Source: a virus
Reading direction: 5' to 3' (one strand)
Length of the DNA stretch: 22,394 bases
IMG/VR virus record: IMGVR_UViG_3300010885_032027
Location: 1-22,394 of that record
The position numbers and the translations under genes were made by a program. Below are positions 16,682-19,078 of the stretch, in pieces. The notes under the pieces are model-generated. The model saw only the letters and a program-made list of their open reading frames with translations, did not search any database and was not told the origin of the DNA. Positions within the stretch are counted from its first letter, which is position 1. Every line of letters starts with the position of its first letter.

Positions 16682-19078
16682 ATGGCAACCGAGTATACCC
16701 CACAAGAAATTGCAGAAATTAACGCACAGGCCGCGGAAGAAATAAAACGGCTCGGATATGTATCTGCTGAAACCAAAATAGCCATGGCAGACGCTGCCAC
16801 TGGAGTCAAAGGGTTTACTGCGTCAATAAACAAATTAGGATCTTCTGCACTGGGTATGGGCAAATCACTTGCCTCTGGCCAATCCAGCTCAGATGCATTT
16901 AATAAATCCATGATTGGCTCAGCCGATGCTCTGAGCAATCTAGTAGGATTAATTCCAGGAGTTGGCATTGCTGTTAAACTAGCAACCAAAGTGATACTCC
17001 AAGGTGGTGCCCGCTATGTTGCCGCAGTAAAAGAACAGTCAGACCAATTACTTAAAGGTTACAAAGACATTGCTAACGCTGGCGCTCAGACTGCCGCCGG
17101 CATGTCAGGCGTTTATGACAATTTGAAACGCATGAATTACGATGCGGCAAAAGAAATGGGCGAGTTTACTGCTCTTGTTGCTGAGAACTCGCAAACATTG
17201 GCCATGTTTGGCAAAACAGTAGGAGGCGGACTTACTGAAGTAGCTAAAATATCACAGGTACTGACCAATGGTGATGTTGGTGCAGAGTTTGCTGCCATGG
17301 GTCTATCCATCAATGAGATCAACAAGGGCATTGTAAGCTACACAAAAATGCAGATGCTCACAGGTTCACGCCTGAAAATGTCTGCTCAAGAGCAAACTGC
17401 AGCCGCTGCCGCATATATCAAGGAAGTTGATTTACTAGCAAAAGTAACTGGCAGAAATAGACAACAACAAGAATCCGACAAGGAATCAGCTCAAACAGAA
17501 GAACGCTTTGCTGCTTTCACAGCCAAGTTAGAAGATAGAATAGCTGCCGGCGGCCCAGATGCCGACGTTGCTAAAAAGCAATTAGAACAAGCTAATCTGG
17601 TACAAAGCTACTCAGCAAATCTGGATCCAGCCATTCGAAAAGGTATGTTAAATTCGGTCACTGGCACGTTTAACAGTCCAGAAGTACAAAAGCTCATGCG
17701 ATCAGCGCCTGAGGCACAACGAATGCTGGCCAGTGGAATGTTTGACGCAAGCGAAGTTTTTTCAACAATGGTCCAGGGGTTTGAAAAGGATAGAAAAGGC
17801 GCAATCGGCCGTGCTTCTATAGGTGTTCAAGATCAATATGGTATTTCCCTCAAAGCCCAAAATCAAGCAACTGCTATGCAGAAAGCAGGAACGTTGGGTG
17901 AAAAAGTTGATGCTGGCAAAACAGCACAAGCTGTAGATGACAACATAACAAAAAACAGAGTAAAGCAAGAACAGAATGATCGTCAGATCACTGCTAGACA
18001 GCAAGATGCGCTTCAGGTAGGCATGGGTGCTGTTACAACCGGTATGAGCGCATTGACCGGGGCTACTGATTCAGCAACCGCAGCCTTGGAAAGTCTAGCT
18101 GGCTTTGCAGGCGTCAAAAATAATCGTGGTGCACCGGTAGGATCTGCACCTGCTCCTGCTTCGGCAGCACCAGCGGCAGCTAGACCAGCACCAGCGGCAG
18201 CACCATCAGCGGCACCTGCGGCACCAGCGGCAGCTAGACCAGCACCATCAGCGGCACCTGCGGCACCAGCGGCAGCTAGACCAGCACCATCAGCGGCAGC
18301 ACCTGCTAAACAAGGCGCTGTTACCGGCACAGATGGCCAGGGCGCAGAAAAAACTGGATCTAATGCTGCACCGCCTCCAGCAAAATTAAAAACTGCATCT
18401 AAAACTAGTGGTATGAGTGAAGATGAAATCAAGAAAATGATTATTGCCCACGAAGGTATACGTAACAAGCCTTACAAAGACAGTTTGGGGTTGTGGACTG
18501 TGGGAGTAGGGCATCTAATAGGTGATGGAAAATCTTTACCTCCTGAATGGAACAGAGAATTTTCCCAAGAAGAAATAATGAAAATGTTTGAGGATGATTA
18601 TGCTCATCACAGACTAGCCGCACAGAAAATTCCAGGATTTGGTAAACTTGGTACCTCTGGGCAAGGTGCGTTAACTGATTTAACTTTTAATATGGGACCA
18701 AGTTGGATTCAAAAATGGCCCAAGCTAAAAGAACAATTGGCTAATTCGGATCTTGCAGGTGCTGCATCTAATCTAGAAGGCAGCAAGTGGTATGGACAGG
18801 TAAAAAGTCGAGGCCCAACCATAGTGGGCCTGTTAAAAGATTCTGCAATCACAGCAGAAGCAGGCGGAGTATTTTCGGGACCAAACTCTGGATACCCTGC
18901 TACGCTACATGGCGACGAAGCAGTCATACCATTGAACAACGGCGGCGGAAACTTTGTACAAATGTTTGAAGATATGGCAAATTCAAATAGAGCAATGGTT
19001 GGAATGATGCAAGAAATGGTCAGAGCACAACGAAGTTCAGTTGATGTACAAACCAAGATATTGAAGTATGCACAGTGA
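16682..19078 (+). CDS. Tape-measure-like tail protein with embedded GH24 lysozyme
   Basis: The 798-residue product has four parts. Residues 1-480 are mostly alpha-helical, with a hydrophobic glycine-rich segment (about 83-107, LSNLVGLIPGVGIAVKL) as in tail tape-measure proteins. Residues about 487-543 form an Ala-Pro linker with a 14-residue repeat. Residues about 578-720 are a T4-type lysozyme: Glu591, Asp600 and Thr606 have exactly the E-x8-D-x5-T spacing of T4 lysozyme Glu11, Asp20 and Thr26, in HEGIRNKPYKDSLGLWTVG. The end holds GGVFSGPNSGYPATLHGDEAVIPL, a signature seen at tape-measure C-termini. It would set tail length and cut peptidoglycan on entry. In T4 the lysozyme sits in gp5 and the tape measure is gp29; here one protein seems to combine both. 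The start lacks a strong ribosome binding site. Confidence 0.75.
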   Translation: MATEYTPQEIAEINAQAAEEIKRLGYVSAETKIAMADAATGVKGFTASINKLGSSALGMGKSLASGQSSSDAFNKSMIGSADALSNLVGLIPGVGIAVKLATKVILQGGARYVAAVKEQSDQLLKGYKDIANAGAQTAAGMSGVYDNLKRMNYDAAKEMGEFTALVAENSQTLAMFGKTVGGGLTEVAKISQVLTNGDVGAEFAAMGLSINEINKGIVSYTKMQMLTGSRLKMSAQEQTAAAAAYIKEVDLLAKVTGRNRQQQESDKESAQTEERFAAFTAKLEDRIAAGGPDADVAKKQLEQANLVQSYSANLDPAIRKGMLNSVTGTFNSPEVQKLMRSAPEAQRMLASGMFDASEVFSTMVQGFEKDRKGAIGRASIGVQDQYGISLKAQNQATAMQKAGTLGEKVDAGKTAQAVDDNITKNRVKQEQNDRQITARQQDALQVGMGAVTTGMSALTGATDSATAALESLAGFAGVKNNRGAPVGSAPAPASAAPAAARPAPAAAPSAAPAAPAAARPAPSAAPAAPAAARPAPSAAAPAKQGAVTGTDGQGAEKTGSNAAPPPAKLKTASKTSGMSEDEIKKMIIAHEGIRNKPYKDSLGLWTVGVGHLIGDGKSLPPEWNREFSQEEIMKMFEDDYAHHRLAAQKIPGFGKLGTSGQGALTDLTFNMGPSWIQKWPKLKEQLANSDLAGAASNLEGSKWYGQVKSRGPTIVGLLKDSAITAEAGGVFSGPNSGYPATLHGDEAVIPLNNGGGNFVQMFEDMANSNRAMVGMMQEMVRAQRSSVDVQTKILKYAQ
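18167..18304. repeat. 42-bp in-frame Ala-Pro repeats
   Basis: GCACCAGCGGCAGCTAGACC occurs at 18167, 18221 and 18263, giving periods of 54 and 42 bases. The 42-base unit encodes APAAARPAPSAAPA; the longer first gap contains one 12-base insertion. It forms the linker before the lysozyme domain. Near-perfect identity makes length change by slippage or recombination likely. Confidence 0.9.

Follow-up and report, generated by a model that had tools for sequence, protein, structure and literature searches.

A lysozyme-carrying helical protein encoded next to the portal gene of T4-related jumbo phages: a candidate tape measure with a variable hydrolase slot

The locus and its 798-residue protein

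The window analysed here, a stretch of 22,394 bases, is an entire IMG/VR record and is a piece of a T4-related jumbo phage genome. A 36-kb contig (G001) contains it at 99.99% identity and extends 15 kb farther upstream; the closest isolates by portal protein are PA5oct, Atu_ph07, Phosso and the CBB/BF group, all of them T4-related jumbo phages, and contigs related to the window reach up to 347 kb. An open reading frame on the plus strand (16682-19078; start ATG, stop TGA) encodes a protein of 798 amino acids, flanked by a divergent gp26-like gene and the portal gene.

15820..16656, minus strand: gp26-like baseplate hub gene, divergent upstream neighbour (PF12322, E=4.6e-17; phrog_150)
16669..16677, plus strand: T4-late-promoter-like sequence motif GGTAAATAT, 4 bases ahead of the ATG of the 798-residue protein gene
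16682..19078, plus strand: gene of the 798-residue protein, a putative virion protein (homologues at about 75 loci)
16682..18106, plus strand: conserved all-helical body, residues 1-475 (family HMM, near-constant length in full members; AlphaFold2 pLDDT mostly >85 for residues 130-440)
18107..18412, plus strand: disordered Ala/Pro-rich linker, residues 476-577 (composition, AlphaFold2 model)
18422..18847, plus strand: T4-type lysozyme (GH24) domain, residues 581-722 (catalytic E591, D600, T606; PF00959; PDB; fold)
18866..18940, plus strand: beta-hairpin motif GGVFSGPNSGYPATLHGDEAVIPL, residues 729-753 (family recurrence; AlphaFold2)
18953..19072, plus strand: family-conserved C-terminal helix, residues 758-797 (HMM comparison; AlphaFold2)
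19083..19091, plus strand: second copy of the sequence motif GGTAAATAT, ahead of gp20
19118..20935, plus strand: gp20 portal gene, next downstream (PF07230, E=3.5e-102)

The sequence-only reading of this locus had placed the gene directly before gp20 and had described its product as a helical body joined by an Ala-Pro linker to a T4-type lysozyme, with a tape measure signature at the C-terminus. The gene order and the layout were borne out: AlphaFold2 models residues 1-475 as all-helical and residues 729-748 as a hairpin, and a 40-residue window starting at residue 489 consists of Ala and Pro to 88%, with part of the linker encoded by a perfect 42-bp repeat (18198-18298). The signature is indeed present behind the lysozyme, as GPNSGYPATLHGDEAVIPL at residues 733-751 (pattern GPxSGYPxxLHGxEAVIPL), and it recurs throughout the family; in proteins that other phages have annotated as tape measures, it is matched only with E values of 2 or higher.

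Profile, catalytic residues and modelled fold all identify residues 581-722 as a T4-type lysozyme, for which muramidase activity is predicted. The PF00959 match covers residues 590-705 (E=2.3e-12; 47.8 bits versus a curated cut-off of 22.3), T4 lysozymes rank first in a phmmer comparison of the protein with the PDB, and the AlphaFold2 model of the domain, a check suggested beforehand, adopts the T4 lysozyme fold (Z 14.7, rmsd 2.0 Å over 110 residues). The active-site spacing E-x8-D-x5-T noticed earlier (E591, D600, T606) is exactly that of T4 lysozyme, lies within the profile match and is found also in three relatives (L030, L054, L083); given the agreement of the modelled fold, it is not due to chance. 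In each of the three sequences G001, G007 and G016, the only PF00959 match is the protein of the 798-residue type.

The exact late promoter TATAAATA has no occurrence within the window. Across the family, a [GTC]TAAATA element lies at most 60 bases from the start codon in 14 of 53 members, mostly 12 bases before it, so that late mRNA of these genes may be leaderless; many other members have (T)ATAAATATA farther upstream of the gene.

A virion protein family with a variable hydrolase slot

The order of gp26, a gene of this type and gp20 is shared by PA5oct, Atu_ph07, CBB, Phosso and about 75 metagenomic relatives. The four isolates encode a protein of 722-845 residues between the divergent gene and gp20, annotated as 'structural' or 'hypothetical', and the divergent neighbour is itself annotated as baseplate hub in PA5oct, as structural in CBB and as hypothetical in Atu_ph07 and Phosso. 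An HMM of the body, built from metagenomic members only, recovers CBB gp251 (1e-17), Atu_ph07 gp197 (2e-7) and PA5oct gp335 (1e-3), and the Phosso counterpart is 34.6% identical to that of Atu_ph07. By its homologous body and its identical gene place, the window protein belongs to this family of the jumbo-phage gp26-gp20 interval, typified by CBB gp251 (phrog_14121 in PHROGs); a BLAST search of phage genomes with the body alone gave no match. The family is virion-borne in isolates, because both PA5oct gp335 (marked ESI-MS/MS in its record) and CBB_251 (29 unique peptides, 50% coverage; PMC5259590) were detected by mass spectrometry, and by analogy the window protein would be so too. The isolate copies share gene place and body with the window protein but differ from it in that no peptidoglycan hydrolase was found in them; in CBB, the lysozymes sit in gp239 and gp240, not in gp251.

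The full proteins from portal-anchored loci (n=51, the four isolates included) combine a constant with a variable part. In nearly all full metagenomic members the body comprises about 453-492 residues (~475), while the remainder varies from 211 to 760. Eight Pfam families exceed their curated cut-off in the slot that holds the lysozyme in the window protein: VanY, Phage_lysozyme, GH19, SLT, VgrG3-like C, Phage_lysozyme2, Glucosaminidase and Amidase_2. Typed by local member-built profiles, the non-redundant set contains 28 members of two M15-like types, seven of SLT, five of GH19 and four of T4 lysozyme type; a further eight sequences have in common a lambda-endolysin-like domain with a weak PDB match (1am7, E=0.15). 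Since relatives hold so many unrelated wall-cutting enzymes in one slot, the wall-opening enzyme seems to be an exchangeable cartridge rather than a part of the usual tail spike.

Judged from sequence relationships, the gene is a mosaic island flanked by conserved neighbours, because its nearest relative shifts along the gene (the body is closest to the L016 group, the lysozyme to L030, at 77%, and the C-terminal part to L003, at 85%) while gp26 and gp20 are conserved. Five near relatives are 88-91% identical to the window in gp26 and 96-98% in gp20; in the body, identity falls to 44-46%, and their slots are unrelated to that of the window protein. In L003 the portal is 95% and the C-terminal part 85% identical, yet a GH19 domain replaces the window's lysozyme. 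DNA similarity to the 347-kb relative ends at 16821 and resumes at 19059, save for one stretch of 65%.

Four lineages (L049, L052, L054, L067) have two adjacent copies of the gene. Each pair unites an M15-like peptidase, on one copy, with a domain that cuts glycans, on the other: SLT-like in L049, SLT in L052, T4 lysozyme in L054 and GH19 in L067. If copies paired at random and the odds were equal, four such mixed pairs out of four would arise by chance about 1 time in 16, which makes the pairing suggestive and no proof.

Tape measure, enzyme carrier or other roles

In T4, the lysozyme is part of gp5 and the tape measure is gp29, and the earlier reading had supposed that the lysozyme is here separate from gp5. 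This is what the 36-kb contig shows: its gp5-like spike of 509 residues has the OB and DUF2345 (beta-helix) parts without a lysozyme, and the 798-residue protein lacks the gp5-type OB fold and beta-helix, which are on that separate gene. About 20 contigs encode homologues of the spike, all similar to it in size except for one of 805 residues (L130:1501-3918), the C-terminal extension of which resembles the neighbouring protein by eye. CBB gp240 retains a lysozyme. A strict rule that the lysozyme is either in gp5 or in the protein of the 798-residue type fails for Atu_ph07 and PA5oct; in the former, gp699 bears a trypsin-like domain, and in the latter, the virion contains a free lysozyme.

A complete gp29 homologue elsewhere in the genome had been named as the finding that would speak against the tape measure assignment. 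Across 11 genomes or contigs, relatives of up to 347 kb included, phrog_1283 and PF10145 recognized neither such a homologue nor a TP901 core, and a scan of viral contigs with T4 gp29 matched only close T4 relatives. Atu_ph07 gp701 (L099:17510-18127), a RefSeq 'tail length tape measure protein', was considered and rejected: it is a tail-lysozyme-type domain of 205 residues that resembles tape measures via that domain only, the profiles matching it also match the lysozyme slot of L036, and misannotation is likely. PHROG 'tape measure' matches in long family members (phrog_167, 1538, 5062, 23574) lie in part over Gly-rich or enzyme regions and for that reason were excluded as evidence. Beside gp5, at L009:8938-10161, lies a Gly/Ala-rich protein of 407 residues with repeated GALSGAL-type units and no PHROG match.

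The earlier interpretation thus stands as regards the T4-type lysozyme, its tether, the helical body, the missing gp29 homologue and the separation from gp5; its equation of the body with a tape measure finds no backing in gp29 similarity, and it did not take in that the slot is exchangeable from one family member to another. The body and gp29 share no detectable sequence similarity (hhalign probability 0.2%, with single-sequence templates only), and HMM and hhalign comparisons of the body with gp29 and with the cyanophage GC606/607 proteins, likewise with single-sequence templates only, returned no match. As expected of a tape measure, the body is a long, predominantly helical chain in the AlphaFold2 model, arranged as a compact bundle; its best PDB match (Z 5.1) is background for helical bundles and not proof of a new fold. 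The BFVD matches at E<0.001 are proteins that lack a name or a characterisation, the Atu_ph07 homologue among them; the nearest named structures, for the most part those of tape measures or minor tail proteins, have E 0.009-0.15, below significance. An α-helix rises 0.15 nm per residue. The 722 residues of the CBB protein would accordingly span 108 nm versus a tail of 123 nm including collar and baseplate, and 798 residues of the PA5oct type would span 120 nm versus 140 nm in MIJ3, a length comparison of two phages only. With some members at 930-1240 residues, the length of the whole protein cannot be a simple function of the tail.

We regard it as very likely that the 798-residue protein is part of the virion and brings a wall hydrolase into action at entry. 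That it is also the tape measure, with an enzyme on it, of a T4-related jumbo phage tail is our favoured reading, held with moderate confidence. It draws on the helical chain, the anchor-like C-terminal helix, the lysin on the chain, for which known tape measures offer parallels, the high virion coverage, the rough length agreement and the lack of another recognized candidate; in phiCD508, a C-terminal tape measure domain is bound to the needle tip (PMC11948020). The missing similarity to gp29 and the compact body count against it. The gene also lies outside any tube-to-baseplate tail operon, and the tandem paralogues of four lineages, unusual for a tape measure, would fit better with a tail or hub enzyme carrier, situated in the tube or on the hub, while an unrecognized protein sets the tail length. 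The compactness of the body, its lack of similarity above noise to known tape measures, and the Gly/Ala-rich protein of 407-451 residues adjoining gp5, the 407-residue form of which could be the length-setting protein, agree with such a carrier. We consider it possible but doubtful, as ten of the larger open reading frames of the 347-kb relative yielded no other tape measure candidate and the CBB counterpart is among the best-covered virion proteins, unlike a minor accessory.

Proximity to gp20, together with the placement of the CBB homologue in a PHROG of the category 'head and packaging' (phrog_14121), would be compatible with a head-resident protein, ejected or portal-associated. This is improbable in our estimate: the other neighbour, gp26, is a baseplate hub protein, hub and tail genes adjoin gp26 in T4 and cyanophages as well, and a long-tethered lysin is better suited to delivery by the tail. 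Least credible of all is a lysis endolysin on an unusually long protein, suggested by the name of the matching PHROGs family (phrog_7, endolysin), for the homologues are virion proteins, a late-promoter-like motif precedes the gene amid structural genes, and the cyanophage 'endolysins' named on the same basis also adjoin gp26.

Proposed mechanism and relation to known systems

We infer for the 798-residue protein its position in the tube, its tape-measure role, its release and its activity. The helical body would reside inside the tail tube, with the C-terminal helix and hairpin as the anchor at the hub. Sheath contraction would send the protein out by way of the tube and bring its tethered lysozyme into the periplasm, where it would breach the peptidoglycan locally and let the DNA in. 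The wall-cutting task of this clade would have shifted from gp5, left as a bare OB/beta-helix spike, to the 798-residue protein, the slot of which recombination may refill with hydrolases matched to the host. A further proposal, tentative and rather unlikely to hold in full, is of an unnamed tape-measure family with its C-terminus as a universal hydrolase socket, the tandem copies forming a mixed tape that delivers peptidase and glycosidase together.

T4 gp29 resembles the 798-residue protein in being helical, encoded near gp26/gp51 and furnished with a hydrophobic stretch, and in its position in the tube (known for gp29, proposed here); it differs in having no enzyme and no detectable sequence similarity. 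T4 gp5 likewise carries a GH24 lysozyme used at entry, as would be the case here, but it unites OB fold, lysozyme and beta-helix on one chain, whereas here the lysozyme is elsewhere and the gp5-like spike is without it. The 'endolysins' of cyanophages S-SSM5 (gp014/015) and S-H25 (T4-like GC 606/607) are large proteins encoded in tandem next to gp26/gp51; their T4-type lysozyme is 38% identical to the present one, and S-SSM5 gp015 has a similar GPxSGYP motif. Their bodies show no detectable similarity when single sequences are compared, and the order of lysozyme and motif is reversed in S-SSM5.

Wall-degrading motifs used at entry are known from the tape measures of mycobacteriophage TM4, T5 (pb2) and enterococcal phages (GH23) (PMC1796659, PMC10194240), which differ in being mostly of siphophages or Gram-positive hosts and in having different bodies; neither a multi-enzyme slot of this kind nor paralogues in pairs are described in these papers. 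That tape measures can carry lysins and that lysin domains are shuffled is itself established (PMC10684548). New against published lysin work, as far as the papers cited show, are the body family in T4-related jumbo phages, the breadth of the slot, its connection with a gp5 that lacks the lysozyme, and the pairing of paralogues. The study has importance for T4-related jumbo phages, in which tail-length setting and wall crossing are without annotation, by suggesting a tape measure candidate open to clean tests in the cultivable relatives CBB and PA5oct. With at least eight hydrolase families, unrelated to one another, in the slot of a single conserved body, the protein family also offers a natural collection of candidate entry lysins matched to their hosts. 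Caution is advised with 'endolysin' and even 'tape measure' labels in such genomes, which often track the enzyme domain alone.

Other variation was noted at the locus and in its surroundings. An extra open reading frame, a homing endonuclease by eye, lies between the gene of the 798-residue type and gp20 in several relatives (L020:4450-4972, L054:4258-5011, L041:278-779). Three stretches of the window (4781-7203, 9281-12901, 13711-14337) show no similarity to the equivalent place of the 347-kb relative; they contain radical-SAM-like, SDR-like and nucleosidase-like genes, named by eye, and separate gp47 from gp46. An imperfect 81-bp tandem repeat (643-833) lies within a minus-strand virion structural gene (phrog_12050).
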